DNA of 33,137 nt from Peptostreptococcus sp. MV1 (GTDB taxonomy: Bacteria > Bacillota > Clostridia > Peptostreptococcales > Peptostreptococcaceae). The notes beneath the pieces were generated by a model, which was not told where the DNA came from, made no database searches, and worked only from the letters and a program-made list of their open reading frames with translations. Where the stretch lies: the NCBI RefSeq assembly GCF_000758885.1, contig NZ_JRNB01000087.1, positions 130-33,266 on the forward strand, given 5' to 3'. Position numbers and translations under genes: made by a program. Every line of letters begins with the position of its first letter. Within the stretch, counting starts at the first letter, position 1. Positions 1-22,810 of the stretch are shown piece after piece.

Positions 1-433
1 AGGGCTGCTTCATCAATTTTTTCGTAAGTGTCCGTACACTTACTGTGCTTGCTACAAAAGAATGATTAGGGTAGCAAGCGTTAAGCTTTTATTAAGTATT
101 ACATTTGTATTATACCATAAATCAATTCCTTTAGCTGTATTTATATCATAGGTTTTGTATTAATTTTAAAATATTTCTCTCCATAGAAGAACGCAGATTT
201 GTTGATTTATATGGTGAATAATTCCAATCGAAGGACTTTTGTAATTCTTTATTATTTTGCAATAGTTTACATTCATAATAAACATTTCTTTGTTTTAAGG
301 CTCAAAAAGTTCTGGATTAAAGATAACATTAGCATTATAAGTTTAATTTGTTCTCGTATGATTTAATTTTTAGAGTAAATTTCAAACAGGAAATTGAAAA
401 AATGTGAATATTATTATGAATGTAAAAAAACTA
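1..433. other. AT-rich stretch without a recognisable gene
   Basis: No convincing coding region is seen on either strand in this AT-rich stretch. The one clear structure is an inverted repeat at 24-43, with arms GTAAGTGT and ACACTTAC around CCGT. It could be a regulatory site or a trace of a mobile-element junction. The left end of the element, and any conjugation genes, lie outside the window. Confidence 0.5.
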
Positions 434-490
434 TTGACAACAATATACCATCGGTATATACTGGTAGTATATACCGATGGTATATTGTTG
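434..490 (+). promoter_or_regulatory. tetR promoter inside a double palindromic operator
   Basis: A near-consensus sigma-A promoter is visible: TTGACA at 434-439, a 17-nt spacer, and TATACT at 457-462. It lies in a perfect inverted repeat with 24-nt arms at 438-461 and 467-490 around a 5-nt centre. Each arm is itself an operator-sized palindrome, ATATACC-N3-GGTATAT, at 443-459 and 469-485. A GGAGG ribosome site at 493-497 leads to the ATG at 505. Two adjacent sites over the -10 and start point suggest tight autorepression by the TetR protein. That the downstream operon is under the same control is inferred. Confidence 0.85.
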
Positions 491-504
491 ATGGAGGTGT
501 TTAA

Positions 505-1119
505 ATGACTATTTCTGAGACTCAAAAGAAAATATTGGCAGTCGGCAAGAAAGAATTTTTAAAAAAAGGATTTAAGGATGCTTCACTTAGAATAATTGTC
601 GAGGAAGCAGGATTTACGAAAGGTGCTTTTTATGGTTATTATCCTAATAAAGAGGCCTTATTTGAAGCTATTGTTTCTGATGTAGCTGATGGGTTAATAG
701 AACAGTTCAAAGCTGCACAAGATGCACATTTTGATTTAATTCCAGAAAATAAAACTTTAGAAAGCAGAGAGCTGTCTACAAAATATCTTTTGCATTTTGT
801 GAATTATATTTATGATTATTTTGAAGAATTCAAGCTTGTAATTTGCTGTTCTGAAGGCACAAAATACGAAGATTATATTCATGAACTTGTAGAATTGGAA
901 GTATCCCGTACGGAAAAATATTACGCTATTCTTAAAGAAAAAGGCAAAATGGCAGGAAACGTCAGTCATGATTTACATCACATGATTACCAGTGCATATT
1001 TTACAGCTGTTTTTGAAACGATTGTGCATGATATGACAAGAGAACAAGCCATTAAATATGTTAAAGAGCTTGCAGTTTTTTTTAATTCGGGATGGGATGG
1101 ACTTTTAAGGTTTAAATAA
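505..1119 (+). CDS. TetR/AcrR family transcriptional regulator
   Basis: This 204-aa protein has the normal size of a TetR repressor. The N-terminal helix-turn-helix (about residues 8-55) shows the family pattern, with a phenylalanine-rich first helix, a glycine turn, and the recognition segment around KGAFYGYYPNKEALF. The rest is a helical ligand-binding domain not recognisable at subfamily level. The start is fixed by GGAGG at 493-497, seven bases before the ATG. It lies directly upstream of and codirectional with a twelve-gene transport operon, so it probably senses a transported or related small molecule and represses that operon. The ligand is unknown. Confidence 0.9.
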   Translation: MTISETQKKILAVGKKEFLKKGFKDASLRIIVEEAGFTKGAFYGYYPNKEALFEAIVSDVADGLIEQFKAAQDAHFDLIPENKTLESRELSTKYLLHFVNYIYDYFEEFKLVICCSEGTKYEDYIHELVELEVSRTEKYYAILKEKGKMAGNVSHDLHHMITSAYFTAVFETIVHDMTREQAIKYVKELAVFFNSGWDGLLRFK

Positions 1120-1120
1120 A

Positions 1121-1156
1121 GCGTAAAATTTTCACGCAAGGTTAGCAAAGGCTAAC
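1121..1156 (+). other. Small hairpins between tetR and the transport operon
   Basis: The 66-nt gap after tetR contains GCGT/ACGC arms at 1121-1137 around an AT-rich centre, and a stem GTTAGC-AAAG-GCTAAC at 1141-1156. Neither is followed by a T-run, so they are poor terminators. They may tune read-through or mRNA processing between the regulator and the transport genes. No second strong promoter is seen here. Confidence 0.35.
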
Positions 1157-1185
1157 AACTATATTTAGAAAGGATATAGATTATT

Positions 1186-1785
1186 ATGAAAAATAGAGAA
1201 AATATATTACTAACAAGAGATTATATTTCCATAGGCGTTTTTTCACTTATTTATTTTGTTATTGCATTTGTTATAGGCGGTATCGCACAAATGACACCTG
1301 TCACTTTTCCGTTTATGCCGATGATAGTAGCTTTATTTGCGGGCAGTGTTTTTATGTTATACACCGCTAAAATACCGAAGCGCGGATCACTTTCCATACT
1401 TGGTATACTTGCCGGAATCTTGTTATTTGTTACCGGTATGTTTTGGATGATGTCGGTATTTTTCATCGTATTTGGATTTATTGCGGACTTTATTTGCCAA
1501 TCAGGAAATTTCAAATCATTCAGAAGAAATTTACTTGCCTATTGCGTGTTTGCGCTGTCTCCAATGGGAGCCTATATTCCCATGGCTATCATGCCTGCAC
1601 AGTTTGATGAATTCATGCGTAGAAAAGGAGATGTTTCTTCTTTTGAAGGAATCATCAATGCTATTAGAATAAATTGGTGGGTTATCCCCTTAATGATTTT
1701 GGGGACAATTATTTGTGCCATAATCGGAGGCCTTATAGGTAAAAAATTATTGAAAAAACATTTTGAAAAAGTGGGGATTATATAA
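1186..1785 (+). CDS. ECF transporter S component, MptD family (module 1)
   Basis: This 199-aa integral membrane protein has about five or six hydrophobic segments. It resembles the MptD-type putative S components (TIGR02185, Trep_Strep), the substrate-binding membrane subunit of an ECF-type importer. Typical features are a short polar N-terminus before the first membrane helix, and an end in which the last helix is followed by a basic GKKLLKKHFEKVG tail. An almost identical tail ends the second S component at 9401. The next two genes encode the matching T and double-A subunits, so a full dedicated ECF importer is present. The substrate is unknown. The ATG follows AAAGGA at about 1168. Confidence 0.8.
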   Translation: MKNRENILLTRDYISIGVFSLIYFVIAFVIGGIAQMTPVTFPFMPMIVALFAGSVFMLYTAKIPKRGSLSILGILAGILLFVTGMFWMMSVFFIVFGFIADFICQSGNFKSFRRNLLAYCVFALSPMGAYIPMAIMPAQFDEFMRRKGDVSSFEGIINAIRINWWVIPLMILGTIICAIIGGLIGKKLLKKHFEKVGII

Positions 1786-2490
1786 ATGGCTTTAGATCCC
1801 AGAACAAAGCTGCTGATTTTATCAATAACAAGTATTTCCGTGTTTCTGAATGAAAGTATCGTTATAGAATGCCTTTTTACAGCAATCCCTATATTATTGC
1901 TCTTACAGGCGAAAGAGTTCCGTACTGCTTCAAAATACGGAATTCTCTTTATTGTGTTATTGATGGTACAGCTTTTTGTTATATCAAAATTACCTGTTAC
2001 GATCGGAGGCATCATATATATGTTTGATGTCTATATAAGAAAACTTATTCCTTGTTTTATGCTCGGCACATTTTTAATACAAACTACAAAGGTCAGTGCT
2101 TTTTTAGCTGCATTCAGTCGATTGCATTTGCCTAAAGGTTTCACTATTGCACTTTCTGTTACATTGCGATACTTTCCGACAATGGCTGAGGAATGGAACT
2201 ATATTAAGGACGCCATGGCTCTTCGAGGGATAACCGCTTCTTTTACAGGATTTTTACGCCATCCGGTCAAAATAATGGAGTATGTATATGTACCCATGCT
2301 GGTATCTGCTTCTAAAATCTCTGATGAAATCACACAAGCCGCAATTACAAGAGGAATAGATCATGTCGGAAGGCGCAGCTGTATGGAAAAAGTTTGTTTT
2401 TCAATCCATGATGCTCTGATTGTAACAATCTATATAGGGATTATTTGCATGATATTTTTTGATTTTTTACGAGGAGGTGTATTCCCTTGA
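1786..2490 (+). CDS. ECF transporter T component, CbiQ/EcfT family (module 1)
   Basis: This 234-aa membrane protein belongs to the CbiQ/EcfT family, which couples the ATPase subunits to the S component. N-terminal hydrophobic helices are followed by a cytoplasmic part with two Ala/Arg/Gly coupling segments (around ALRGITASF and AAITRGID) that contact the ATPases, then a C-terminal membrane helix. The ATG abuts the TAA of the S-component gene. The stop overlaps the TTG start of the ATPase gene, so the three subunits are likely translationally coupled. Confidence 0.85.
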   Translation: MALDPRTKLLILSITSISVFLNESIVIECLFTAIPILLLLQAKEFRTASKYGILFIVLLMVQLFVISKLPVTIGGIIYMFDVYIRKLIPCFMLGTFLIQTTKVSAFLAAFSRLHLPKGFTIALSVTLRYFPTMAEEWNYIKDAMALRGITASFTGFLRHPVKIMEYVYVPMLVSASKISDEITQAAITRGIDHVGRRSCMEKVCFSIHDALIVTIYIGIICMIFFDFLRGGVFP

Positions 2491-3956
2491 TTGAATTTAT
2501 AAAACTTTCTTTTTCCTACAAGGATATGGAAAAAGCTTCTTTACGGGAATTACACTTAAATATTCCAAAAGGACAATGTGTTCTCTTGTGCGGTGCATCA
2601 GGATGCGGAAAAACGACTCTTACCAGATTGGTAAACGGGCTGATTCCTCATTTTTTTGAAGGAAAACTTTCAGGCAAAGTAACTGTAAAAGGAATGAATG
2701 TTGCCGAGACCGAAATTTCAACTCTTTCCGATAGTGTCGGCACGGTTTTTCAAAATCCGAGAACACAATTTTTCAACACAGATACAGATAGTGAAATTGT
2801 TTTCGGACTGGAAAACAGAATGCTGGAGATGAAAGAATTAAAACAGCAGCTTGAAAGGATTACTAAAGATTTGCATATAGAAAAATTAAAAGGATGCAGC
2901 ATTTTTGAACTTTCCGGAGGGGAAAAACAAAAAATTGCATTTGCGTCTGTGTATGCCACGAATCCGGATATTTTTGTATTGGATGAACCGTCCTCAAATC
3001 TGGATTTTCATTCCGTGCTTGAACTGAAAAAACTGATAGAAAAAAAAAAACAACAAGGGAAAACGATTATCATTGCAGAACATCGCTTGTGGTATTTAAC
3101 AGATGTTGCAGACAGGGTCATCTTAATGCAGGAGGGTCAGATTTTTAAGGATATGAGTATACAGGATTTTTGCGAGCTCCCGCTTGAACAAATACAAAAT
3201 ATGGGGCTCAGGTGTCGAAATCTTTCTGAAATCAAAACAAATACCAATGATAAAAAATTTTCCCAACACACCTTAGAGCTGAAAGATATTCATGTCAAAT
3301 ATGGTGAAAAGATTATCTTGCAAAACATCTCTTTTACCGCAAATGGTGGAGAGATCGTCGCAATTACCGGCGCAAACGGAACAGGAAAAACGACACTGGC
3401 ACGCACGATATGCGGACTGATAAAACAAAAATCGGGAAATATTTTTGTAGACGGCAGGAGTTTGTCTGCAAAAGCGCGTATTAAAAAATCTTACATGGTG
3501 ATGCAGGATGTCGGACATCAACTTTTTACGGATTGTGTGGAAACAGAATGCACACTCGGAACAAAAACAACAGATGAGTCTGTTATTGACGAAACTTTAT
3601 CGGCCTTATCTCTTTCCGAATTAAAAAACAGACATCCCCTTTCACTTTCAGGAGGACAAAAACAGAGGTTGGCAGTGGCAATCAGCTTGCTTTGTGATAA
3701 AGAAATTCTTATTTTCGATGAACCGACCAGTGGGCTTGACTTAAAAAGCATGCGGGAAGTAGGAACGATGGTAGAGAGACTTTCTGAACAGGAAAAAATC
3801 CTGCTCATTATTACACACGACATTGAATTTATAAAAACAATATGTTCCAGAGTTTTGCTTTTGTCAGGCGGTAAAATAATTGCCGATTTGAGAGGTGAAG
3901 AAAAGAAAAATATCGAAAAATATATTTTAGCAGAAGGAGATCGAAATGAAGAATAA
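2487..3956 (+). CDS. ECF transporter double ATPase, CbiO/EcfA type (module 1)
   Basis: This 489-aa protein is a fusion of two ABC ATPase domains, which replaces the usual separate EcfA and EcfA' subunits. Domain 1 has Walker A GASGCGKTT (about residues 36-44), signature LSGGEKQK and Walker B VLDEPSSNLD. Domain 2 has Walker A GANGTGKTT, signature LSGGQKQR and Walker B IFDEPTSGLD. The start is a TTG that overlaps the previous stop, preceded by a strong GAGGAGG at about 2471. It powers the S and T subunits encoded just upstream. Its end overlaps the start of the next ABC gene at 3946. Confidence 0.9.
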   Translation: MIEFIKLSFSYKDMEKASLRELHLNIPKGQCVLLCGASGCGKTTLTRLVNGLIPHFFEGKLSGKVTVKGMNVAETEISTLSDSVGTVFQNPRTQFFNTDTDSEIVFGLENRMLEMKELKQQLERITKDLHIEKLKGCSIFELSGGEKQKIAFASVYATNPDIFVLDEPSSNLDFHSVLELKKLIEKKKQQGKTIIIAEHRLWYLTDVADRVILMQEGQIFKDMSIQDFCELPLEQIQNMGLRCRNLSEIKTNTNDKKFSQHTLELKDIHVKYGEKIILQNISFTANGGEIVAITGANGTGKTTLARTICGLIKQKSGNIFVDGRSLSAKARIKKSYMVMQDVGHQLFTDCVETECTLGTKTTDESVIDETLSALSLSELKNRHPLSLSGGQKQRLAVAISLLCDKEILIFDEPTSGLDLKSMREVGTMVERLSEQEKILLIITHDIEFIKTICSRVLLLSGGKIIADLRGEEKKNIEKYILAEGDRNEE

Positions 3957-5700
3957 GAAGAACAAAAACACATTGCATCGCTTATTTGAGTTTGCCGGAT
4001 CATGTAAAGGCTTGCTTTTAAGTTCGGTTGTTTTTGCCGTTCTTGGTGCAGGGTTTGGAATCGTCCCGTATATTGCAGTTTCACGCATTATTATTCAAAT
4101 ATGCGCCGGCGATTACAGCTTGAAATCAATCATGCCGATGGCAGTAATTGCTCTTTTGGGGTACCTTTTGCAGCTTGGTCTATCAACTGTATCTACGGTG
4201 CGGTCTCACAAAGCCGCATTTACTATACTAAAAAATATTCGTACTGCACTTACGAAAAAGTTGTCACGAGTGCCCATGGGATTTGTCTTGGATACCCCGT
4301 CAGGAAAATTCAAAACGATGCTTGTAGATACGGTTGAAAAACTGGAGTTACCCCTTGCTCACATGATACCGGAATTAACAGCAAATATTATGATTCCTGT
4401 CTTAATGTTGATTTATTTCATGTTCCTTGATTGGAGGCTGGCACTTATTGCTCTTGCAACCTTTCCTGTCGGGATGCTCTGTTATATGGGAATGATGAAA
4501 GATTATGAGAAGCGTTATGACAGAGTTATTAAAGCCGCAAAAGCTATGGATGCCGCTACGGTTGAATATATAGGCGGAATCGAAGTGGTTAAGGCTTTTA
4601 ATCAAAGTAGCGATTCTTATCGCAAATATGCAGAGGCGGTAAAGGAGAATGAAAATTCTAAATCGGAATGGTTCAAAAAGACGAATCCGTACTATGCGGC
4701 AGGTATTGCAATAGCACCCTCAAGTCTAATCGGAGTTCTTCCTGTCGGAAGTTTGTTTTATATAGGCGGAAGCATAAGCGCAGGCAGTTTTATATCCTGC
4801 ATTATTTTATCATTGGGCTTGATTGCTCCGCTTATTCAGGCATTGCGATATACAGACAGCCTTGCTATGGTAGATGCCACCGTAAAAGAAATCGGAAGCC
4901 TTTTGGATACGGAAGAAATGGAACGCCCGGAAAAACGAGTACAGCTTAAAGGAGAAAAAATAGAATTTTCCAACGTCTCTTTCTCTTACAAGGATACAGA
5001 GGTTTTACACAGCATTTCCTTTGAAGCGAATGAAAATGAAATGACGGCTTTGGTCGGACCGTCGGGATCGGGCAAATCCACTGTCGCCAGACTCATTGCG
5101 TCTTTTTGGAATGCGGGAAGCGGAACCGTGAAAATAGGCGGTGTCGATGTGCAGAACATACCGCTTTCGCAGATAATGGAACATATTGCGTATGTTTCAC
5201 AGGATAATTATTTGTTTCATCTTTCTATACGAGAAAATATACGAATCGGTAAGCCGGATGCTACAAACAGCGAAATCGAAAATGCAGCAAAAAAAGCGGC
5301 ATGCCATGATTTTATTACATCACTTCCCAATGGCTACGATACCGTTGTCGGAGACAGCGGAAGCAATCTTTCCGGCGGAGAAAAGCAGCGCATTGCCATT
5401 GCAAGAGCCATATTAAAAGACAGCCCCGTAGTTATTTTAGATGAAGCTACCGCCTTTACAGACCCTGAAAATGAGTCGATAATTCAGCACTCCATCAGCG
5501 AGCTTGTAGCGGGAAAAACGCTGATTGTCATTGCACATCGATTATCTACTATCACATCAGCCGATAAGATTATCGTCATGAATGCAGGAAATATAGAAGC
5601 GGAAGGAAAACATGAGGAGCTTACCCAAAATTGTGTTCTTTACAGAGAACTTTGGAATACACATATCAGCACGCTTGATATGAAGGAGGTATCAGCATGA
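3946..5700 (+). CDS. ABC half-transporter (permease-ATPase), YbtP/IrtA-like, subunit 1
   Basis: This 584-aa protein has an exporter-fold membrane domain (about residues 1-320, six helices) and an ATPase domain with Walker A GPSGSGKST near 371, signature LSGGEKQR near 475 and Walker B VVILDEAT near 496. The D-loop reads AFTDPENE. From memory, AFxDPENE is frequent in the YbtP/YbtQ and IrtA/B group, exporter-shaped proteins that import metallophores. It overlaps the next half-transporter gene by four bases and matches it in length, so the two probably form a heterodimer. Direction of transport and cargo cannot be read from the sequence; a multidrug or peptide exporter remains possible. Confidence 0.85.
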   Translation: MKNKKNKNTLHRLFEFAGSCKGLLLSSVVFAVLGAGFGIVPYIAVSRIIIQICAGDYSLKSIMPMAVIALLGYLLQLGLSTVSTVRSHKAAFTILKNIRTALTKKLSRVPMGFVLDTPSGKFKTMLVDTVEKLELPLAHMIPELTANIMIPVLMLIYFMFLDWRLALIALATFPVGMLCYMGMMKDYEKRYDRVIKAAKAMDAATVEYIGGIEVVKAFNQSSDSYRKYAEAVKENENSKSEWFKKTNPYYAAGIAIAPSSLIGVLPVGSLFYIGGSISAGSFISCIILSLGLIAPLIQALRYTDSLAMVDATVKEIGSLLDTEEMERPEKRVQLKGEKIEFSNVSFSYKDTEVLHSISFEANENEMTALVGPSGSGKSTVARLIASFWNAGSGTVKIGGVDVQNIPLSQIMEHIAYVSQDNYLFHLSIRENIRIGKPDATNSEIENAAKKAACHDFITSLPNGYDTVVGDSGSNLSGGEKQRIAIARAILKDSPVVILDEATAFTDPENESIIQHSISELVAGKTLIVIAHRLSTITSADKIIVMNAGNIEAEGKHEELTQNCVLYRELWNTHISTLDMKEVSA

Positions 5701-7451
5701 TTCAGATGTTCAGACGACTTTTGGATTTTTCCGGAATGGAAAGAAAAAGATTGATTTTATCGTTTATTTTTCATATGTGCAATTCCGTGTTTGAGATGCT
5801 TCCCATTATGGCTGTGCTTGCAGTTTTGAACGGAATACTATTATCACTTTCAAGTGGCTTCATGTCGATTAAAACAATATGGGCAGCCTTGGGGATTATG
5901 CTTTTAAGTATTTCAGGACGCATTCTATTTACGAATCTTTCCGCTGTAAAAAGAACCCTTGGAAGCTTTTCCATGTGTTCCAAATGGCGCATGGAGCTTG
6001 GCGAAAAATTAAAACGCGTACCTATGGGATATTTTAATGAGCATCGCCTTGGAGATATTACAGCGGCAGTTACTACAACACTTGGAGATCTGGAAACCAA
6101 TGCAGTTACCGTCATGGAAGCGGTAGCCGGAGGATTTATCCACGCTGCAGTGATAGGGATATGGCTTTTGTTTTATGAATGGAAAATTGGAGTTTTGATG
6201 TTCATAGGGCTTTTTCTTTCCCTTTGTGTGTACGCAAAAACACAAAAAGCTGGTATGAAATATTCTCCGCGCAGGCAAGCTGCACAGGCCGGACTTGTTA
6301 CAGGCATTTTAGAATATATACAGGGGATGTCCGTGATAAAGGCATTCGGACTTGCCGACCGTTCGGACAAATCCGTAGACGCTGCAATCAATGAAAGCGC
6401 AGAGGCAAACATCGCTTTAGAAAAAGTTTTCTCCGGCTTAGCTGCCGTCTTTCAAATGATATTCAAATTTGCCAGATTCGCAATCCTTGTTGTTGCACCA
6501 TACCTGCTTATGAACGGAGAAATAACTCCTGAAAAGTGCCTGCTCCTTATTGTCGCAAGCTTTATGATTTATACGACTGTGGAGCTTGCAGGAAGTACGG
6601 CTGCCGTTGCAAGAGTTGTGGATGCTTCTTTAGACAGATTGGAAACAATATCCAATATTCCCCTTCTTGATGAAAAGGGAACAGACCTTATCCCGAAAGC
6701 ATACGACATAACCGTTTCAAACATTTCCTTTGCATATGAGGAAAAGGAAATTCTGCACGATATAAGCTTTTCTGTTCCTCAAGGTACGAGCTGTGCCATT
6801 GTAGGACCATCAGGCTCAGGAAAGACGACCCTTTGCAGTTTAATTGCACGCTTTTGGGACGTAAAAGATGGTGAGATTCTTTTAGGTGGCGTTAATGTAA
6901 AAGACTATACTTGCGATAGCCTTCTTAAGAATTTTTCCATTGTGTTTCAAAGGGTTTACCTTTTTGAAGATACCATTGAAAATAACATTCTTTTTGGAAA
7001 ACCGCAGTCAACAAAAGAAGAAATAGTGTCCGCGGCAAAGAAAGCATGCTGCCATGATTTCATATCCGCACTTCCGGATGGATACCAAACAAAGATTGGA
7101 GAAGGAGGTGCAACCCTTTCCGGCGGTGAGAAGCAGCGAATCTCTATCGCACGAGCGATTTTGAAAGATGCACCTGTTGTCATTTTAGATGAGGCTACGG
7201 CAAGTGTCGATCCTGAAAACGAACGGGAATTGCAGCAGGCTATTTCAGAGCTGACAAAAAATAAAACGCTTCTGATGATTGCTCACAGGTTGAATACAGT
7301 TCGAGAAGCAGATCAAATTCTTGTTCTTGAAAATGGACGAATTGTGCAAAGAGGAAAACATCAGGAGCTGATACAGCAGGAAGGACTTTATCGACGATTT
7401 GTTGAAATTCGGGGAAATGCAATTGGATGGAAATTAGGAGGCCTGGAATGA
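5697..7451 (+). CDS. ABC half-transporter (permease-ATPase), YbtQ/IrtB-like, subunit 2
   Basis: This second 584-aa half-transporter has the same layout: a six-helix membrane domain, then an ATPase with Walker A GPSGSGKTT near residue 371, signature LSGGEKQR near 475, and Walker B VVILDEAT followed by a conventional ASVDPENE D-loop. Its ATG overlaps the preceding stop (ATGA), with GGAGG just upstream. The TGA in turn overlaps the start of the hydrolase gene. It probably pairs with the upstream half-transporter as a heterodimer. The thiazoline-hydrolase family neighbour and the two ECF importers favour small-molecule uptake, but this is inference. Confidence 0.85.
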   Translation: MIQMFRRLLDFSGMERKRLILSFIFHMCNSVFEMLPIMAVLAVLNGILLSLSSGFMSIKTIWAALGIMLLSISGRILFTNLSAVKRTLGSFSMCSKWRMELGEKLKRVPMGYFNEHRLGDITAAVTTTLGDLETNAVTVMEAVAGGFIHAAVIGIWLLFYEWKIGVLMFIGLFLSLCVYAKTQKAGMKYSPRRQAAQAGLVTGILEYIQGMSVIKAFGLADRSDKSVDAAINESAEANIALEKVFSGLAAVFQMIFKFARFAILVVAPYLLMNGEITPEKCLLLIVASFMIYTTVELAGSTAAVARVVDASLDRLETISNIPLLDEKGTDLIPKAYDITVSNISFAYEEKEILHDISFSVPQGTSCAIVGPSGSGKTTLCSLIARFWDVKDGEILLGGVNVKDYTCDSLLKNFSIVFQRVYLFEDTIENNILFGKPQSTKEEIVSAAKKACCHDFISALPDGYQTKIGEGGATLSGGEKQRISIARAILKDAPVVILDEATASVDPENERELQQAISELTKNKTLLMIAHRLNTVREADQILVLENGRIVQRGKHQELIQQEGLYRRFVEIRGNAIGWKLGGLE

Positions 7452-8032
7452 CATACAAAAAATTTTACTTCGGAAAGTTAAATGCACAGATATTAAAAAA
7501 AATAGATGCGGAACATAAAACAAAAATGAAGCAGCTCATCAAAGAAATCAATCAAGGATCATGGACGGAAAAACAGAAAAAAAGGCAAAAAAGAAGCATT
7601 ATTTCAAATATAGCCCTATACCGATGTTTCATAGATAAAGGGCTTTCAAAAAATGAGGCAAAAGAATTGGTAAAGGAGTATTCATTTTATGTTGCCCAAA
7701 AGGCACATAAGCTTTTGAAAACATTTTTTTATATCCCCGGGTTTTTCAGGCTGTTCCGCTTGTTTATGAAAAAAGGGATGTCGGGCGATGAAATATGGAA
7801 AAGCAGAATCCTGTCGGATGACGGGGAATACTACCGTGTCGATGTGCTCAAGTGCCTTTGGGCGGATACCTGCAATTTTTTTGAATGCCCAGAGCTTTGT
7901 GAGATATTCTGTCTGTGTGATCATATCGTATTCGGAAATATAAAGGGATTTGTATTTGAAAGAAGTCAGACACTGGGAATGAACGGTGAAAAATGCGACT
8001 TTTGCTTCATAAATAGGAAAGGGGAAAGTTAA
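7448..8032 (+). CDS. L-2-amino-thiazoline-4-carboxylic acid hydrolase family protein
   Basis: The 194-aa product resembles the ATC hydrolase family (PF14196), whose namesake enzyme opens the ring of 2-amino-thiazoline-4-carboxylate on the way to cysteine. A basic helical N-terminal half is followed by a mixed domain. The protein ends with the family-typical CDFCF segment after a GMNGEK turn. I chose the ATG at 7448, which overlaps the previous stop as ATGA and has GGAGG at 7437-7441, over an in-frame ATG 21 bases upstream. Many relatives beside ABC transporters and methyltransferases are uncharacterised, so the true substrate is uncertain. A thiazoline substrate fits the metallophore-importer-like neighbours. 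Confidence 0.7.
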   Translation: MTYKKFYFGKLNAQILKKIDAEHKTKMKQLIKEINQGSWTEKQKKRQKRSIISNIALYRCFIDKGLSKNEAKELVKEYSFYVAQKAHKLLKTFFYIPGFFRLFRLFMKKGMSGDEIWKSRILSDDGEYYRVDVLKCLWADTCNFFECPELCEIFCLCDHIVFGNIKGFVFERSQTLGMNGEKCDFCFINRKGES

Positions 8033-8773
8033 ATGAATAGGGCTGAGGAAAAATGGTCCGGGGATGCCGGAAAAATGAAAATGTTTCTTCTTCAAGAAAT
8101 AGAAGAAAGAGGTCTGGAATGGAGAGGTTTGTTAGAACGGTGTCTTGGAGATTGTCAAAAAAACAAAATTTTAGATGTCGGATGTGGAACCGGGTTTATT
8201 TCGCTGCTTCTTGCACAAATTGGGTGTGATGTCATTGCAATAGACAATAATGTCGCAATGCTCAAGGAAGCTGAAAAAATATCTGAGGAGTTAGGATTTT
8301 CAAATAAAATCACTTTTATGCTTAAAGACACAGAGTTAGTGGATTTTCCCGATAATACCTTTAATGCAGTGGTCTCAAGACATGCCTTTTGGCTATTTAA
8401 TAATCCGAAAAAAGTTTATGCGCAGTGGTACAGAATTTTGAAATCCGGCGGTTGTATGCTGAATTTAGATGCAAATTGGCTTTTCCCTTTTTGGGGAGAG
8501 GAACAGGCAAAGCTCTTTCAGTCAGATGAAAACATTTTAACAAAACGCTACGGCAAATTTCAGGATTATTATCATGATACAGATATGATGGACGAATTGA
8601 AAAAACTCCCTTTAAGTTATATAAAACGCCCGGAATGGGATTTGGAAACATGCAGAGAAACAGGTTTTAAGAACATTGAAACAGAGACACTGTTACAGGA
8701 AAAGTATTGGAATCCTTTTATGGCACGCAGGTATCGCACGATGCCGACCTTTATCATCAAAGCTCAAAAGTAA
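8033..8773 (+). CDS. Class I SAM-dependent methyltransferase
   Basis: This 246-aa Rossmann-fold methyltransferase has a clear SAM-binding motif I, ILDVGCGTGF, at residues 46-55, an acidic residue ending the second strand (VIAIDNN), and a motif IV-like segment around FNAVVSRHAFWLFNNP. Length and pattern fit the UbiE/Methyltransf_11 small-molecule methyltransferases. The start codon directly follows the TAA of the hydrolase gene. In this operon it may modify the imported or processed compound. The acceptor is not predictable. Confidence 0.85.
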   Translation: MNRAEEKWSGDAGKMKMFLLQEIEERGLEWRGLLERCLGDCQKNKILDVGCGTGFISLLLAQIGCDVIAIDNNVAMLKEAEKISEELGFSNKITFMLKDTELVDFPDNTFNAVVSRHAFWLFNNPKKVYAQWYRILKSGGCMLNLDANWLFPFWGEEQAKLFQSDENILTKRYGKFQDYYHDTDMMDELKKLPLSYIKRPEWDLETCRETGFKNIETETLLQEKYWNPFMARRYRTMPTFIIKAQK

Positions 8774-8792
8774 TATTTACGGAGGAAAATAA

Positions 8793-9401
8793 ATGAAAAA
8801 AAATAAAGCATTAAAATGGGAAATTAAAGATGTCATTGCGGCTGCTCTGTTGAGTCTCTTTCTCATTCTCATCCAGTTTATTGTAAATATGGTATGCATG
8901 ACCAATCATTTTGTCAGTATGGTTTTATCAGTTGGTTTTACCATGTTCTTATGTGCACCTGTCTATTATCTGCTTTTGTGTCGGGTAAGGAAGCACTTTG
9001 TCAGCCTTGTTTATATGAGTATCGTCGGTATGATTTATCTGTTGATGGGGAACTGGTATCTTTTACCGTACTTTGTTGCAATTGGTATGATATGCGAAGC
9101 AATCTTGTGGAAAGATTGTTCTGAAAGGAATTCAAAACAAATTATAGCATCGTGGACTGTTGCCAGTCTTTTATATAACGGTGTCAATTTACTGCCGATT
9201 TGGTTCTTTTGGGAAACCTATTACAGCTTTGCAAAAAGCGGTGGCATGGATCAAAGCTATATAGACTCATATATCAGCTACTATAAGACTCCCGGATGGA
9301 TTATATTCATTGTTATCTTTACGGCGATATGTGGGCTTGCGGGTGGTCTGGCAGGCAAAAAAATTATGGGAAAACATTTCAAAAAAACGGGACTTCTATA
9401 A
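8793..9401 (+). CDS. ECF transporter S component, MptD family (module 2)
   Basis: This second MptD-type S component has 202 aa and several membrane helices. It ends in GGLAGKKIMGKHFKKTGLL, closely matching the end of the first S component at 1785. A GGAGG at 8781-8785 precedes the ATG. Its TAA overlaps the ATG of the T-component gene by one base. The body differs from module 1, with aromatic-rich loops, so the two importers probably recognise different substrates or forms of one. Confidence 0.8.
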   Translation: MKKNKALKWEIKDVIAAALLSLFLILIQFIVNMVCMTNHFVSMVLSVGFTMFLCAPVYYLLLCRVRKHFVSLVYMSIVGMIYLLMGNWYLLPYFVAIGMICEAILWKDCSERNSKQIIASWTVASLLYNGVNLLPIWFFWETYYSFAKSGGMDQSYIDSYISYYKTPGWIIFIVIFTAICGLAGGLAGKKIMGKHFKKTGLL

Positions 9402-10096
9402 TGAGAAAAATTTCTTTTGCTGTCATAACTAAAATATGGGGATTCATTTGTGTACTAATAGCCATTTATATGGGAAAAGATGTCGTTTTCAGCTGCATCC
9501 TTACAATTGCCACTTTTTTATATTTAGGTATACAAGGGAAATGGAAAATCGTATTTGATTACGGCATATTCTATATCTTATTGGGAATTTTACTCTACGC
9601 CATACAACGTTTCGGACTTCATATGCTGATTTTTTCGGAGTTTTATGTGCTGATGCTTTGGAATCTTTCTCCTGCTTTCTTGGTATCATGGGATTTGATT
9701 ACAACACCGCCTGGAAAAATTTCGGCATTCCTAAGTTCCATTCACCTTCCTACATCCGTTATTTTGGGTGTCCTTGTAGTATTTAGATTCTTCCCTACCA
9801 TGAAATCGGAGTTAAGGAGTGTGTATCTATCTATGAAAAACAGAAATTTGACAGGTCTTAAACAGATATTGCAAGCACCTGCAAAGACATGTGAATATGT
9901 GCTGATTCCCCTACTCGTCAGAATCTTGATGATAGCAGATCAGCTTTCTGTTTCAGCTATTGCAAGAGGTGGGGAATCACCGGGGAAAAGAAGCAGCTAC
10001 TATGAGAGCAAGATTGAAATAACGGATATATTTGCCATGATTTTATGGTTCGCTTTGATATCGGGTTATTTATGGATAGGAGGCATGAGAATATGA
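9401..10096 (+). CDS. ECF transporter T component, CbiQ/EcfT family (module 2)
   Basis: A 231-aa CbiQ-like membrane protein with N-terminal hydrophobic helices, a cytoplasmic region, the SAIARGGESPGKRSS coupling segment near the C-terminus and a last membrane helix. An open frame extends 35 codons upstream, but the ATG at 9401 is preferred because it overlaps the S-component stop (TAATG), like the other junctions. It is paralogous to the T component at 1786-2490. Its TGA overlaps the ATPase start. Confidence 0.85.
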   Translation: MRKISFAVITKIWGFICVLIAIYMGKDVVFSCILTIATFLYLGIQGKWKIVFDYGIFYILLGILLYAIQRFGLHMLIFSEFYVLMLWNLSPAFLVSWDLITTPPGKISAFLSSIHLPTSVILGVLVVFRFFPTMKSELRSVYLSMKNRNLTGLKQILQAPAKTCEYVLIPLLVRILMIADQLSVSAIARGGESPGKRSSYYESKIEITDIFAMILWFALISGYLWIGGMRI

Positions 10097-11490
10097 TCGA
10101 CTTACAGAATGTTTCCTTTCAGTATGCGGATAGCAATTATGGTGTGACGAATATAAATTTAGTGATAAAAGCCGGTGAATGTGTGGTTTTGACAGGAAAA
10201 TCAGGATGTGGAAAAACGACCATTACAAGACTTATCAACGGTCTTGCTCCAAAATATTACAAAGGAACAAAAAAAGGCAGTATACGAATTGCAGGAAAAG
10301 ATATTGAAATGATGCCGTCCTATGATATCGGTAAAATTGTTGGCAGCATATTTCAAGATCCTCAAAGACAATTCTTTTCATCAGAGCTTGAGGGTGAAAT
10401 AGCATTTGGATGTGAAAATTACGGTTTCTCAAAGTTTGAAATTCAAAAAAGAACAAAGGATGCTATTCATAAGATGAGATTGGAAAACATAGGAAAGATT
10501 TCCTTAGATTTGCTTTCAAGTGGTGAAAAACAACGAGCAGCAGTAGCTTCTGTATATGCAATGCATCCGGAGGTTTTTGTGTTTGATGAGCCGACTGCAA
10601 ATCTGGACAAAGACGGCATCATTCAAATGAAAAACATCCTTATGCAGTTAAAGAAAGCAGGATACACATTGCTGATTGCCGAGCATCGTCTCAGTTGGAC
10701 AGAAGAACTTGCCGACAGGTATTTATATATGAAAGACGGACAGATACAGCATGAATATTCTTCTTTAGAATTTAGTACAATGAATGACTTGGAACGCATT
10801 TCAAAGGGACTTCGCCGTATTATAAATAAACCTTTTACAAAACAGATTGCCCCACCCCGAACGGACAATATTGCAATACAAGGAGAAAGGCTCTCTCTCA
10901 AGAAAAATAAAAAACAAATATTAAAAAATGTGGATATTTTTGCTAATGAGAAAAGTGTTACTGCAATCACAGGCAACAATGGTGCGGGAAAAACCAGTTT
11001 AGCTTTAATTTTAAGCGGACTTGAAAAATTAACAGAAGGTAATGTTTATATTCATGGTGAGAAGGCAGGGTACAGAGAACTTTGCAAACATACCTATTAC
11101 TGTTCAAATGACACAGGGACACAATTTTTTACAGAAAGCATTTCAAAAGAACTTTTGCTTGGAACAAAATATGATGCAGAGAATTTAGAAAATGCAAAAA
11201 AATTGCTTAAGGATATGTGTTTATACGAATATAAAGATTCTCATCCTGCTTCCTTGTCGGGAGGTCAAAAACAAAGACTTGCAGTATGCTGTGCGTTGTT
11301 GTCAGGTAAAGATATTTTGATACTTGACGAACCGACCAGTGGCTTGGATGCCGAAAATATGTTTTTGATTGCAAGGGAACTAAAGAAAGCTGCAGAAAAA
11401 GAAAAAACTATTTTGGTAATCACTCATGATGAGGAATTTATGGATGCTTGCTGTGAATACAGAATAAGTATCGATAAAACGCAAAAATAA
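10093..11490 (+). CDS. ECF transporter double ATPase, CbiO/EcfA type (module 2)
   Basis: This 465-aa tandem ABC ATPase has Walker A GKSGCGKTT, signature LSSGEKQR and Walker B VFDEPTANLD in domain 1, and Walker A GNNGAGKTS, signature LSGGQKQR and Walker B LILDEPTSGLD in domain 2. The first signature has Ser in place of the usual first Gly, a mild change. The start is ATG 10093, overlapping the previous stop as ATGA with GGAGG at 10079-10083; an in-frame GTG 16 codons earlier lies inside the T gene. It completes the second ECF importer. Confidence 0.9.
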   Translation: MIDLQNVSFQYADSNYGVTNINLVIKAGECVVLTGKSGCGKTTITRLINGLAPKYYKGTKKGSIRIAGKDIEMMPSYDIGKIVGSIFQDPQRQFFSSELEGEIAFGCENYGFSKFEIQKRTKDAIHKMRLENIGKISLDLLSSGEKQRAAVASVYAMHPEVFVFDEPTANLDKDGIIQMKNILMQLKKAGYTLLIAEHRLSWTEELADRYLYMKDGQIQHEYSSLEFSTMNDLERISKGLRRIINKPFTKQIAPPRTDNIAIQGERLSLKKNKKQILKNVDIFANEKSVTAITGNNGAGKTSLALILSGLEKLTEGNVYIHGEKAGYRELCKHTYYCSNDTGTQFFTESISKELLLGTKYDAENLENAKKLLKDMCLYEYKDSHPASLSGGQKQRLAVCCALLSGKDILILDEPTSGLDAENMFLIARELKKAAEKEKTILVITHDEEFMDACCEYRISIDKTQK

Positions 11491-11511
11491 AGGACAAGGA
11501 GGGTTTTTATA

Positions 11512-12891
11512 ATGGATGTTCGTGATAAATTACTTATGGAAAATCCTTGGAAATTGATGATTCATCTTAGTTTGCCGGCAATTTTGGGTCAACTGATAGT
11601 AGGATTATATGCCTTTGTCGATTCAATTTATGTCGGGCAAATGGTGGGAACCGATGCCATGAGTGCAGTTTCGGTGGCATCTCCGTTTGTATTAATCAAT
11701 AATGCGATTGCTGTTCTTCTTGGGATAGGTTCGGGCTCTGTACTTTCTCGGGCAATCGGAAAAAAAGATAAAGAAACCGTGGATAAGATTATAGGAAATC
11801 TAACTTTCTTGGTAATCGTTTTATCATCAGTAGTTATGATTATCGGTATCATATTTGCTCCTGAATTTTTACGCTTATCTGGTGCCGGCGGTGAAGTGAT
11901 GGAGATGGGTGTTTCTTATTTAAGAACAGTATATCTCGGCTCCATATTCGTAAATTTTATGCAGGGTGCAAATATGGTAATAAGGGCAGAGGGTCGCATG
12001 GGAATTGCAATGGGAATCATGGCGGCTGGTGCTATTTTAAATATTATATTAGATCCTATATTCATTCTGTTTATGCCATCTCGAGGACCGCAAGCTGTTG
12101 CAATCGCAACTGTGATTTCTCAAATCAGTCAAGCTTTGGTCACCTTAATATACTTCTTGAAAAAAAGTCCGGTGGTTCGTTTTCATGGGATAAAACCTGC
12201 AAAAGATTTATTACCTGAAATTTTTTCCGTGGGAATGAGCGCTATGCTCATGCAAATTATGATGTTGGTTCAAATGACAGTTGTATATAATACGGCAGTG
12301 CATTTTGGCGGAGAAAAGCAAATAGCTCTTATGGGAGCCGCTCAAAGAGTTATGCAGCTTGCATTTGTTCCGATATGGGGAATGAGTCAAGGGATGCAGC
12401 CCGCTGTCGGAACAAATTTCGGAGCAAAAGAATATATAAGGGTTAAAAAACTTACGAATGTATTTATTATAGGTTCTACTTGTCTTGCCGGATTTTTCTT
12501 TGCCATAATTGAAATTTTTTCAGTGCAGATATTATCTGCATTTATTACCGATTCAGTTATTGTAAGTTCAGGATTATCTAATTTTAGGCTTATGTACTGC
12601 ATATTTCCTACTTATGGCATGCTCATAATGACAGTCACTTATTTTCAGGCTATCGGTAAAGCAAAGCAGGCAGGAGTATTGGTTATACTAAGGCAACTTG
12701 CGCTTGTAATCCCTTTAGTATTGATATTACCTCGTTTTCTGAACGAAAATGTTCTCGGAGTATGGCTGGCGTTGCCTTTGAATGATGTCGTTATAATTTT
12801 GATTGCCATTATATTGCTAATTAGTGAATACAAGCGCATTACTAAGCTTGCACAGGAAATAAACAAGGTTAATGTTGGTGAGATATCATGA
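11512..12891 (+). CDS. MATE family efflux transporter
   Basis: This 459-aa protein has about twelve membrane helices in two similar halves and the N-terminal MATE pattern PAILGQLIVGLYAFVDSIYVG. The family exports drugs or metabolites by sodium or proton antiport. An AAGGAGG at 11496-11502 gives strong initiation after a 21-base gap. The stop overlaps the next gene as ATGA. In this operon it may export an apo- or modified ligand, or detoxify a by-product; drug efflux is the alternative. Confidence 0.88.
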   Translation: MDVRDKLLMENPWKLMIHLSLPAILGQLIVGLYAFVDSIYVGQMVGTDAMSAVSVASPFVLINNAIAVLLGIGSGSVLSRAIGKKDKETVDKIIGNLTFLVIVLSSVVMIIGIIFAPEFLRLSGAGGEVMEMGVSYLRTVYLGSIFVNFMQGANMVIRAEGRMGIAMGIMAAGAILNIILDPIFILFMPSRGPQAVAIATVISQISQALVTLIYFLKKSPVVRFHGIKPAKDLLPEIFSVGMSAMLMQIMMLVQMTVVYNTAVHFGGEKQIALMGAAQRVMQLAFVPIWGMSQGMQPAVGTNFGAKEYIRVKKLTNVFIIGSTCLAGFFFAIIEIFSVQILSAFITDSVIVSSGLSNFRLMYCIFPTYGMLIMTVTYFQAIGKAKQAGVLVILRQLALVIPLVLILPRFLNENVLGVWLALPLNDVVIILIAIILLISEYKRITKLAQEINKVNVGEIS

Positions 12892-14711
12892 AAAAAATCG
12901 TCATTTTGAGTTGTTTCATTGCTTTTGCCTTTGTCGTTTTATTTCCGCGTTCCTTTATTTTTGCTGCGGAAGAAACTGAACATTACGAAACTGTTATTGA
13001 TAAAGTTGCGGATGCGTATATAGGTAAAAGCGTTCCAGGTGCATGTGTCATTGTATCTGAACACGGAGAAATTGTGTTTTCAAAAGCCTACGGATACGCT
13101 GATTTAGAAAAAAATATACCTATGGATCCTGAAAACACAGTTTTTGAATGGGGATCAATATCAAAAACCTTTATATGGGTAGGTGTGATGCAATTAAATG
13201 AAGAAGGAAAAATTGATTTGGATGCGGATATTCGCAACTATCTACCAAAAGGTTTTTTGAAAAATTTACACTATGATACACCTATTACAATGCGTCATCT
13301 CATGAATCATACGGCGGGCTTCGAGGAGCAGCTTATTAACCTTCGCTATTTTGAAAGTGATAAGGAATTTACATTAGCCGAAGTCTTGTCCTCACATCAA
13401 CCCGAACAGGTATTTTCACCGGGCAAGGTAAGCGCATATTCTAACTGGGGCGCTGCATTAGCTGCATTTATTGTAGAAAGAGTGAGTGGTCAAAATTACA
13501 AAGAATATGTAAATGAACACATTTTGAAACCTTTAGATATGAACAATACATCGATAGGTCCATTTCAAAATGATAATCCTACGATTTTGGCAAGAAAGGC
13601 AGTCGGTTATTCTTTTTTTGAAAAGGGATTCCGCAAAGAACCGAATATGTATTTAAGAATGTACCCTGCTGGTGGAATGAATGGCTCAGCTGGGGATTTG
13701 TTGAATTATGCACAAGAGCTGGCTAAAAATAATGATAAAGATAATCTATTGTTTAATAATCCTCATACTAAAAAAGAAATGTTTACAGAAACCTATCGCT
13801 CCTATGGTGCAAATTCAGGTTTATCTCACGGCTTCTGGCAATATGCGAATAATCCGGAAATGCATGGACATGAAGGTGGAACATACGGATTCAAAACACA
13901 AATATGGGTAGAACCGAAAAATGAGAGAGCAATTTTAATATTGACAAATGTAATGGAGACGGAGTTTTGCTCGGAGATTATGGAAAAAATTGCATATACA
14001 GAAGCTGATGAAAAAAAGATAAAAGAAAATTTAGATCTCAAGATGTTAAGCGGAGATTATCTTCCTGCCCGCTCTGCATTGAAAAATGTTGGAAAAATAC
14101 AAGGGAAAAAGCAAATGATTTCCATTAGAGTGACAGATGGAAATCGTCTTTGTCTTACCATGCCATTTGAAGATAAAAAGCAATATTACGAACAAATAGA
14201 TTCTAACATTTTCTTTTGCAAGGATGCGAGTCCTGAAGAAAAAATACTTGCTTTTAATATAAATGACGGCAAAGTACATTCTATGAGCTTTAGATTAGCT
14301 CATGATTATATCCCTGCCACTAACACACAAGGGAAAATAGCATTTTTGTTCAGCTTGGGAACTTATATATCAACCACATTATTATTTTTAACATTACTGA
14401 TTATATGCATCATTTCAACGCTACAAAGGTGGAAGAGATGTATGCGACATCATATATATCTATATATTTGTGGAGCTATGCTTGGGATTTCTGGAATTAC
14501 AGGAATGGCTCATTGGTTTTCAATATATGAAATTCTTGCTCATGAACTTATGATTATTATTATTGCTGGATGGTGTTTTAGTATTATAGGGATTTTATGT
14601 GGAGGATATGCAATTTTCAAAGAAAGAAGTATCAAAAACAGTGGATTACTACTAATATTTATAGCTCAGATTTTTTCGGCATATTATCTTGGGTTTTTAA
14701 CTGTTGTATAG
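12888..14711 (+). CDS. Membrane-anchored serine hydrolase, beta-lactamase/PBP4* family
   Basis: The 607-aa protein has a signal sequence (about residues 1-27, ending FAA), then a class C beta-lactamase-like domain with the catalytic SISK at 90-93, YSN at 184-186 and a third-motif-like HEGG at 328-331. A linker domain follows, and about four membrane helices form the last 130 residues. The catalytic domain should face outside the cell. Relatives include D-aminopeptidases, esterases and PBP-like proteins; true beta-lactamase activity is unlikely for this architecture but not excluded. It is the last gene of the transport operon, overlapping the MATE gene by four bases, so it may act on the transported compound. 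Confidence 0.8.
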   Translation: MKKIVILSCFIAFAFVVLFPRSFIFAAEETEHYETVIDKVADAYIGKSVPGACVIVSEHGEIVFSKAYGYADLEKNIPMDPENTVFEWGSISKTFIWVGVMQLNEEGKIDLDADIRNYLPKGFLKNLHYDTPITMRHLMNHTAGFEEQLINLRYFESDKEFTLAEVLSSHQPEQVFSPGKVSAYSNWGAALAAFIVERVSGQNYKEYVNEHILKPLDMNNTSIGPFQNDNPTILARKAVGYSFFEKGFRKEPNMYLRMYPAGGMNGSAGDLLNYAQELAKNNDKDNLLFNNPHTKKEMFTETYRSYGANSGLSHGFWQYANNPEMHGHEGGTYGFKTQIWVEPKNERAILILTNVMETEFCSEIMEKIAYTEADEKKIKENLDLKMLSGDYLPARSALKNVGKIQGKKQMISIRVTDGNRLCLTMPFEDKKQYYEQIDSNIFFCKDASPEEKILAFNINDGKVHSMSFRLAHDYIPATNTQGKIAFLFSLGTYISTTLLFLTLLIICIISTLQRWKRCMRHHIYLYICGAMLGISGITGMAHWFSIYEILAHELMIIIIAGWCFSIIGILCGGYAIFKERSIKNSGLLLIFIAQIFSAYYLGFLTVV

Positions 14712-14787
14712 AGGATCTTTTAAAAGAATGCTCTAATATATATTTTTCGAGTAAGGAAAATTTGATTAAATAGTGGAGGTAATTGCT

Positions 14788-14841
14788 ATGTGTTATGTAG
14801 GGTCTGTTATTTATATAGAAAATAATAATAGACCTTTTTGA
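14788..14841 (+). CDS. Very short ORF with good ribosome site (17 codons)
   Basis: A GGAGG at 14776-14780 sits eight bases before an ATG that opens a 17-codon frame (MCYVGSVIYIENNNRPF). The product is not recognised. It could be a leader peptide, since it precedes two hairpins and the sigma-factor gene, or the surviving start of a gene lost by deletion. Confidence 0.25.
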   Translation: MCYVGSVIYIENNNRPF

Positions 14842-14881
14842 TGTCAGTAATTATTATAAACAATTAAATTTAAAACATTTT

Positions 14882-14946
14882 GGAAGAACAGGTTTCTTCC
14901 GTTTTCGAGGACTTTTTATGCTTATGTGCAGGAGTCCTCCTTTTTT
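14882..14946 (+). terminator. Tandem hairpins with T-run before the sigma-factor gene
   Basis: The first hairpin is GGAAGAA-N5-TTCTTCC at 14882-14900. The second pairs GAGGACT (14907-14913) with AGTCCTC (14933-14939) and is followed by six T at 14941-14946. The second is a plausible intrinsic terminator for the transport operon. Together they could form a terminator/antiterminator for the gene at 14989. Confidence 0.55.
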
Positions 14947-14988
14947 GTCTGAAAAACAAATAGACAAAAAAGAAATGGAGGAAACTTT

Positions 14989-15405
14989 ATGGCAAAAGAG
15001 TATTACCTTTATGTCAGAGGGCAAAAGGTAAAAGTCAGTGAAGATATTTATAAAGTCTACTGGCGAGAAAAAGAACACGAGAAGTATTTAGAGCAGGTGG
15101 ACAGAAAAAACCACCTGCTTTTCTTTTCCTCTTTGGATCATGATGGGAATTTTGTAGATAACATCGCTGATGAAAGCGTTGATGTAGCAAAGATTGTTGA
15201 AACACAGATGATGATTGAGGCAGTCAGAAATGCTATATCAAAACTAAACGATGAGGAAAGGGACATCATAGAGCGTTTGTATTTCAATGATGAAACGCTA
15301 TCAAGCATAGCGAGAGGTAAGAAAGTGAGCTATCAAGCTATACAATGGCGAAAAAATAGCATTCTTAAAAAACTAAGTGTGCTATTGGAAGAATTTATGA
15401 AGTAA
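14989..15405 (+). CDS. Sigma-70-like regulatory protein of conjugative elements (Orf7-like)
   Basis: This 138-aa protein resembles the small sigma-factor-like proteins of Tn916/Tn1549-type conjugative elements. The N-terminal half has YYLYVRGQKVKVSEDIYKVYW, a motif seen in that group. The C-terminal half is a sigma region 4-like helix-turn-helix: LNDEERDIIERLYFNDETLSSIARGKKVSYQAIQWRKNSILKKL. In such elements these proteins regulate transfer or excision genes. The ATG at 14989 has GGAGG at 14977-14981. Its presence marks this stretch as part of an integrative element. Confidence 0.8.
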   Translation: MAKEYYLYVRGQKVKVSEDIYKVYWREKEHEKYLEQVDRKNHLLFFSSLDHDGNFVDNIADESVDVAKIVETQMMIEAVRNAISKLNDEERDIIERLYFNDETLSSIARGKKVSYQAIQWRKNSILKKLSVLLEEFMK

Positions 15406-16001: not shown

Positions 16002-16063
16002 TGTCTTGGAAGTGTGGTATAATAAAACTGCATAGAAAGATACAAAAAAAGGAGGCGGGTGCA

Positions 16064-17830: not shown

Positions 17831-17863
17831 GAGTGTCGTATTGATGACAAGAAAACAAGATAA
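17826..17863. repeat. 38-bp direct repeat, left copy
   Basis: This segment matches 20556-20593 at 36 of 38 positions, including an identical 21-base core at 17826-17846. It contains the recombinase stop codon. The two copies lie 2730 bases apart and bracket the DUF262 gene. They could be att-like ends of an inserted cargo, or the shared tails of two related recombinase genes that recombined. Confidence 0.85.
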
Positions 17864-17900
17864 ATAAGCACCAGAAAGCAAGTATTTTGGAGGTGGAAGT

Positions 17901-22809: not shown

Positions 22810-22810
22810 A

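Follow-up and report, generated by a model that had tools for sequence, protein, structure and literature searches.

The operon and its element

The window examined here is a 33,137 bp stretch of DNA, bases 130-33266 of contig C87 (NZ_JRNB01000087.1), from the 1.98 Mb genome of Peptostreptococcus sp. MV1, a mouth and gut anaerobe. It contains an operon of 13 genes at 505-14711, all on the + strand with a TetR regulator gene at the head, and the operon lies within an integrated mobile element (Table 1). The original prediction proposed a mobile operon that may import and process a thiazoline-type metallophore. Profile searches find every gene that it named: the TetR gene, two energy-coupling factor (ECF) importer sets, a pair of ATP-binding cassette (ABC) half transporters termed abcP and abcQ, a PF14196 protein, a methyltransferase, a MATE exporter and a serine hydrolase. 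The twelve transport and enzyme genes described as nearly gapless form, with the TetR gene, 13 open reading frames (ORFs) separated by gaps of -25 to +66 bases, the starts of the second T and A components being provisional. Both of the D-loops quoted, AFTDPENE and ASVDPENE, are present exactly in the ABC pair.

Table 1. Features of the operon and of the element that carries it (positions in the window)
Feature	Position	Strand	Evidence
Cargo end and recombinase end of integrated mobile element	1..17824	+	Homology ends, different flanks
Promoter overlapping putative TetR operator palindrome	434..490	+	Promoter scan and palindrome 438-490
TetR-family regulator	505..1119	+	PF00440
ECF S component 1, MptD/Trep_Strep family	1186..1785	+	PF09605 207 bits, TIGR02185 over cut-off
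ECF T component 1	1786..2490	+	PF02361
ECF ATPase 1, two ABC domains in one chain	2487..3956	+	PF00005 in two stretches; TIGR04520 over cut-off
abcP, YbtP-like half transporter	3946..5700	+	Tree; transmembrane domain nearest YbtP and IrtA
abcQ, YbtQ-like half transporter	5697..7451	+	Tree; transmembrane domain alone ambiguous
ATC-hydrolase family protein, H-NOX/TRAPP/V4R-like model, Cys-rich C-terminal half	7427..8032	+	PF14196
Class I S-adenosylmethionine-dependent methyltransferase	8033..8773	+	PF08241/PF13649
ECF S component 2, MptD family	8793..9401	+	PF09605, TIGR02185 over cut-off
ECF T component 2	9401..10096	+	PF02361; start inferred, longest ORF from 9296
ECF ATPase 2, two ABC domains	10093..11490	+	PF00005 in two stretches; start inferred, longest ORF from 10045
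MATE exporter	11512..12891	+	PF01554; 47% identity to MATE of the host's own synthesis locus
PF00144 serine hydrolase, probably extracellular, hydrophobic C-terminal stretches	12888..14711	+	PF00144
Sigma-70 region-4 protein, element backbone	14989..15405	+	PF04545; 68% to sigma gene beside synthesis locus on contig C6
Large serine recombinase, right end	16001..17830	+	PF00239, PF07508, PF13408

The two S components score 188.1 and 164.1 bits against TIGR02185 (cut-off 76.45), which places both in the MptD family. The ABC pair displays the domains PF00664 and PF00005, and the serine hydrolase has an N-terminal signal-like segment and an S-x-x-K motif.

Carriage between hosts on an integrative element had been predicted, and near-identical DNA is found across families with different flanks. 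Window positions 52-17824 are matched at 99.9% identity in Alterileibacterium massiliense, positions 1-17832 at 97.9% in Peptoniphilus senegalensis and the operon part, 52-15464, at 98.7% in Eubacterium callanderi. The window, A. massiliense and P. senegalensis diverge directly after ...GACAACACA at 17824 into three different flanks, with the P. senegalensis homology continuing a few bases further (to 17832). The different flanks mark the right end of an integrated element, located within about 10 bases and closing with the large serine recombinase; the left part is beyond the contig edge. To the left of its cargo, P. senegalensis has genes for a relaxase, MobC, a topoisomerase and a TraG-like protein; the corresponding part of the host's element lies off contig C87. 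With a recombinase at a defined end and flanks that differ between hosts, the whole may be read as a conjugative-type integrative element that carries the operon as cargo, and it may resemble Tn1549. Recent transfer of operon-bearing DNA between families is evident from these alignments.

A scan of named genomes found 22 loci with a PF14196 relative, 12 of them with parts of the operon, which with the window make 13 carriers. The operon genes recur in these 12 genomes at 48-100% identity, either in unchanged order or with some of the genes absent, and the gene set is therefore more than a chance assembly. In the stretches fetched, the TetR gene is present in 12 of the 13 carriers, abcPQ and a MATE gene downstream of the PF14196 gene in 11 each, ECF set 1 in 10, a complete ECF set 2 and the methyltransferase in seven each, and the serine hydrolase in five. 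Most of the carriers are mouth or mucosal anaerobes, among them two Treponema, which have parts of the operon. The PF14196 protein of the window has matches in 19/297 genomes of an order sample and 5/398 of a phylum sample, the window's genome included in both. The locus of genome G002 at C1:562241 is the Peptostreptococcus canis locus L115, from the same genus as the host.

The predicted start of the operon region at 434 coincides with a sigma-70-like promoter, TTGACA-17-TATACT at 434-462 (11/12 match), overlapped by a 53-base palindrome at 438-490. It has the top score in a scan of 1-18200, whose total of 65 matches is no overall excess over the 62.8 expected by chance in shuffled DNA. The half-site ATATACCnnnGGTATAT (ATATACC-nnn-GGTATAT) is exact in 11/13 carriers, with one or two copies each, and in the stretches examined it is found only upstream of TetR and is absent from both Treponema carriers. 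Because the promoter and palindrome overlap and this operator-like half-site is conserved upstream of TetR, the regulator probably represses the entire operon, its own gene included.

The ABC pair and the PF14196 protein

The ABC pair is 33% identical to YbtP and 32% to YbtQ, and abcP has the D-loop LDEATAFxDPENE in common with YbtP. A tree of ABC proteins had been set as a test that could refute the prediction. In a tree of 38 proteins, which does not include IrtAB and which gave long-branch warnings for MdlA, MdlB, Monoglobus and YbtQ, abcP and abcQ fall with YbtP/YbtQ, with pairs linked to nonribosomal peptide synthetase (NRPS) genes and with pairs near TonB receptors. Support of 100/100 separates this importer group from MsbA, MdlA, MdlB and Gram-positive exporters, so that the prediction withstands the test, and abcP lies inside the P side with 98/100. 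Two Prevotella rows that had been labelled exporters beforehand fell inside the importer group. The clade conclusion rests on this careful tree; an earlier quick tree also had long-branch warnings. P/Q frames shorter than 520 amino acids were omitted from the trees, L085 (a cut copy of a gene on contig C6) was dropped from the quick tree, and a Staphylococcus aureus record with frames in many pieces (L120) was only listed. The NRPS-linked P proteins do not form one clade, as eight rows need seven changes in the quick tree.

Compared with solved structures, the transmembrane domain (TMD) of abcP scores 69.9 bits with YbtP, 56.8 with IrtA, 35.7 with MsbA and 31.9 with BmrA. An ordinary multidrug exporter is disfavoured by this ranking, by the tree and by the NCBIfam tet(46) models, which score far under cut-off. 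Among plasmids, 429 records matched the pair, of which the best 40 were listed and 15 were opened from the top of the list, with duplicates and unannotated records skipped. Nine of those opened are Gram-negative or cyanobacterial, and eight of the nine encode a TonB-dependent or outer-membrane iron-complex receptor no more than about 5 kb from the homologous pair, the exception being Prevotella. By sequence, abcPQ belong to the siderophore-importer clade, and the pair would be predicted to work in the import direction.

The operon protein matches PF14196 with 65.6 bits (gathering cut-off 28.1). The family is broad, with members in 81/257 genomes. A fold search of the model of this protein returned H-NOX, TRAPP and phenol-sensor rows that score alike, with Z below 8 and thus under the threshold for trust. 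H-NOX proteins are characterized by a YxSxR motif, which occurs in 0/11 aligned PF14196 proteins. That the protein opens a thiazoline ring is an unproven suggestion drawn from the Pfam family name. A strict tie of PF14196 to P/Q transporters was considered and rejected. Eight of 112 listed PF14196 places are within 12 kb of a listed P homologue, where about one is expected (assuming a 3 Mb genome; the comparison covered at least 150 P and 112 PF14196 places, with at most four candidates scored per genome). As three of the eight belong to operons of the type described here and another two come from a single locus, the link is only modest. Membership of the operon in a plasmid-borne family is likewise disfavoured, as a tblastn search of 72,556 plasmid records (E 1e-5) gave no match to the window's PF14196 protein.

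Thiazoline NRPS loci and swapped cargo

The host genome encodes an equibactin-like locus of its own, at the end of contig C72 and the start of contig C6, which probably adjoin. The locus begins with a relaxase, MobC, a DtxR-like regulator, a thioesterase and a phosphopantetheinyl transferase. Synthesis genes follow, encoding an AMP ligase (39% to YbtE), NRPS modules and two thiazolinyl imide reductases over cut-off. The last part comprises TetR-S-T-A-P-Q-MATE (S, T and A denote ECF components, P and Q the YbtP- and YbtQ-like transporters), a sigma gene and serine recombinases that are 27% or less identical to that of the window. Contig C87 itself has no match to NRPS or reductase.

Reductases over the cut-off are found in 2/398 genomes of the phylum sample and 5/297 of the order sample, the host being included in both. 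A P/Q pair is present within about 20 kb in all seven reductase loci considered (five from the order sample, that of P. alactolyticus and G612), and ECF genes are present in six; in G612 the contig ends and none is seen. The S proteins are PF09605 members in all five cases tested from NRPS loci, in both cases in the window and in the two tested from NRPS-free cassettes. Homologous uptake modules therefore reside inside thiazoline NRPS loci. Other than in the host, a reductase is present in 2/12 carriers versus 3/291 non-carriers (Fisher p 0.013, mixed samples); in the order sample alone, with the host genome excluded, the figures are 1/5 versus 3/291 (p 0.066), a weak co-occurrence. An operator common to the operon and the host NRPS locus was sought and rejected, with no match at three or fewer mismatches in L084.

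The backbone of the element also carries other cargo. An element of Mogibacterium timidum matches the window at 86.6% over 1-119 and 82.6% over 14857-17835, and has TetR-S-T-A-P-Q-MATE in the same slot. Over 8.4 kb this cargo shares 93.4% identity with the uptake portion of an NRPS locus from another Peptostreptococcus (G008); in that locus mobC and TetR are separated by about 21 kb, most of it occupied by synthesis genes. Two more matching cassettes, in G092 (95.2%) and Eubacterium yurii (93.0%), have no NRPS in the stretch fetched. The same transporters are thus found with and without synthesis genes, as would be expected from piracy or from loss. Another sister element is present in P. canis.

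Related arrangements occur elsewhere. Host contig C68 (L193, 1787-9358) has a further uptake cassette in which P-Q and TetR-S-T-A are divergently oriented; a DtxR-like gene comes next, 34% identical to the one of the NRPS locus, and hints at metal control in the family. Plasmid pAPRE01 of Anaerococcus prevotii (L121, typed conjugative) is annotated with a condensation-domain protein, an oxidoreductase-methyltransferase fusion, an Opp/nickel-type importer and a P-Q pair, and its recombinase is 67% identical to that of the window. In L180, L211, L215 and L216, P-Q pairs stand beside apparent five-gene Opp-type importers in place of ECF sets (the ATPases called by sequence match, the other genes by size), as though the two kinds of importer were interchangeable.

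A pemK RNA motif (Rfam RF02913, 51.6 bits, gathering 34.8) is located at 15726-15791, just upstream of the serine recombinase. L098 and L099 have a 1.7 kb insertion with a 425-amino-acid ORF, probably an insertion sequence, to the left of TetR, where the window reads straight through. Directly beyond the element, at 17901-23481, are a GmrSD-type restriction protein and a RhuM-family gene read as two ORFs, followed by short AbiEi/AbiEii-like and RelBE-like ORFs labelled by inspection of the translations. At 25354-27276 is an ORF, labelled in the same way, that resembles a 3-dehydroquinate synthase-shikimate dehydrogenase fusion and has a D/T-rich N-terminal stretch.

Proposed function and alternatives

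The equibactin locus eqbA-N of ICESe2 in Streptococcus equi (PMC3672683) has, like the window, an importer (EqbHIJ, which we read as an ECF set with an MptD-family S component) and a YbtPQ-like pair, EqbKL, on an integrative conjugative element (ICE). It differs in its NRPS genes and DtxR-like regulator, neither of which is in the window; the TetR, PF14196, methyltransferase, MATE, second ECF set and serine hydrolase genes set the window apart, by description rather than by sequence. 023_CTn1 of Clostridioides difficile RT023 (PMC6814731) has a serine recombinase, a sigma-70 gene, ABC genes, an ECF gene and a membrane protein adjoining a thiazolinyl imide reductase. Unlike the window, it includes biosynthesis and an AraC regulator, and no ATC hydrolase appears in the part of the table covered. 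YbtP/YbtQ, the yersiniabactin importer, and IrtA/IrtB are exporter-fold half transporters as are abcPQ, whereas the partner of the Firmicute pairs is often an ECF set. The RUSTI islands of cheese bacteria (PMC5526665) confer siderophore uptake without biosynthesis on a cross-genus ICE and have been read as cheating; by the description in that paper they use instead a FepCDG-type importer, binding proteins and a reductase. A TetR-ABC-ABC-ABC-EcfT-MptD-sigma cassette of the same kind as the window's module is reported from gingival Parvimonas micra, in two gingival isolates and not in a tumour isolate (PMC11076991); the table rows covered list no PF14196, MATE or second ECF genes, and the sections cited do not discuss siderophore uptake. 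Thiazoline loci that travel on ICEs and include ECF-like and YbtPQ-like genes (PMC3672683, PMC6814731) are thus already known, as are siderophore islands for uptake only (PMC5526665). Within the literature searched, three points are new: a composition that combines PF14196, MATE and two ECF sets, a cargo slot shared between elements, and cassettes that are almost identical but occur both with NRPS genes and without them. No publication on this operon was found in the open-licence PMC literature, which is not a claim that it is absent from print.

The reading favoured here, with moderate confidence, is that the operon is TetR-repressed element cargo for acquiring a metallophore that it does not make, most probably one of the thiazoline (equibactin/yersiniabactin) type. 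A ligand would release TetR from an operator covering the promoter. The two MptD-family ECF importers and the YbtPQ-like pair would carry the metal-metallophore into the cell, where the PF14196 protein and the methyltransferase may bind or modify the compound such that the metal is freed. The MATE pump would expel the remnant or excess, and the outer serine hydrolase may trim the substrate outside the cell. We infer the substrate, the direction of the ABC pair, the action of TetR and the role of every enzyme, beyond what gene content shows.

Several observations weigh against uptake of a thiazoline metallophore. In S. equi, EqbHIJ, called a ferric-siderophore-like importer, is required for equibactin-dependent iron import, whereas the iron-overload phenotype still arose when EqbKL was deleted, and efflux is the role that the authors propose for this pair (PMC3672683). 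EqbKL, the closest Firmicute pair to have been studied, is thus dispensable for import, and the ABC pair is the weaker evidence for import in Firmicutes; the analogy with equibactin holds for similar transporters on an integrative element, and the importer shown by deletion is not the YbtPQ-like one. The TMD of abcQ taken alone is ambiguous, scoring a little closer to TM288 and MsbA than to IrtA or YbtQ. Control is not by a metal repressor: profile matches in the operon include TetR and no DtxR-type protein, although the NRPS locus on C72 has a DtxR-like gene. Nor does the operon contain an equibactin-type locus with NRPS, reductase and salicylate ligase. The shortest version, in E. yurii, is TetR-PF14196-MATE with the operator-like site and no importer. 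The operon was correctly predicted to lack biosynthetic genes, NRPS reference proteins having no match in the window or in the fetched surroundings of the 13 carriers. Because no reductase is seen in 10/13 carriers, the thiazoline link is by homology only. The link to NRPS loci that was to be checked across genomes stands in that such loci contain homologous uptake sets, and fails in the other direction: in the stretches fetched for 40 further P/Q loci, the top ones listed, the only match to NRPS references is one 26% AMP ligase (L206), so that the P/Q family is mostly without synthesis; ECF genes are present in 20 of these loci. Scavenging of a compound made by others agrees with the lack of synthesis genes in the operon. 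Given the host NRPS locus and the reductases of two of the 12 other carriers, exclusive reliance on compounds from other microbes cannot be the general rule.

The main rival is detoxification, because TetR, PF14196 and MATE are all that remains in the smallest version. TetR would sense a toxic compound (an antibiotic, a sideromycin or a foreign thiazoline metallophore), the PF14196 protein and methyltransferase would inactivate it, MATE and the ABC pair would export it, and the ECF sets would be passengers or serve to regain metal. The persistence of TetR (12/13) and MATE (11/13) among carriers, the operator-like site kept in E. yurii, a TetR gene that adjoins PF14196 or lies no more than about 550 bases away from it in 5/30 other PF14196 loci shown, and the possible efflux by EqbKL (PMC3672683) all speak for it. 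It is nevertheless judged unlikely: the ABC pair is in the importer clade and has homologues near TonB receptors, two energy-costly ECF importers are kept in 7/13 carriers, which is odd for pure detoxification, and E. yurii and M. timidum, without the pair in this operon, have other uptake cassettes. That TetR and MATE are typical of drug pumps and that the Pfam/NCBIfam labels are generic would suit an ordinary multidrug-exporter locus with ECF vitamin importers adjoining by chance. Such an origin is highly improbable given the tree and the recurrence of the order TetR-S-T-A-P-Q-(MATE) in NRPS loci and sister elements.

The operon might instead serve the host alone, as a recycling or second uptake set for the thiazoline metallophore that its C72/C6 NRPS would make, which would fit the weak enrichment of reductase among carriers. 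This reading is quite improbable, since most carriers show no reductase and the NRPS loci have their own P/Q set, with ECF genes in 6/7. For a heme or tetrapyrrole uptake operon, the H-NOX rows of the fold search may be cited, but the PF14196 proteins aligned have no YxSxR and the TRAPP and phenol-sensor rows score as well. No heme oxygenase family is among the operon's listed profile matches, and the idea seems very doubtful even though an ECF heme importer is known in Staphylococcus lugdunensis (PMC7299338).

Beyond metallophore uptake by this operon, a broader and more tentative possibility is that of one element lineage, spread among oral and mucosal anaerobes, with a swappable slot. The slot would hold a thiazoline-metallophore factory with its uptake genes, near-identical uptake-only 'pirate' versions, or the present operon, whose H-NOX/V4R-like PF14196 protein might open or strip the imported metallophore and free the metal without oxygen. 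If so, this would represent mobile public-goods piracy with its own unloading enzyme.

To our knowledge, little is known of siderophores in mouth and gut anaerobes. If the uptake reading is true, uptake-only elements move between families, with parts reaching Treponema, and metal piracy could spread like other mobile traits. The widespread and unexplained PF14196 and MptD families would gain a testable role, and the near-identical uptake cassettes with and without NRPS genes provide matched pairs for asking what the transporters carry.

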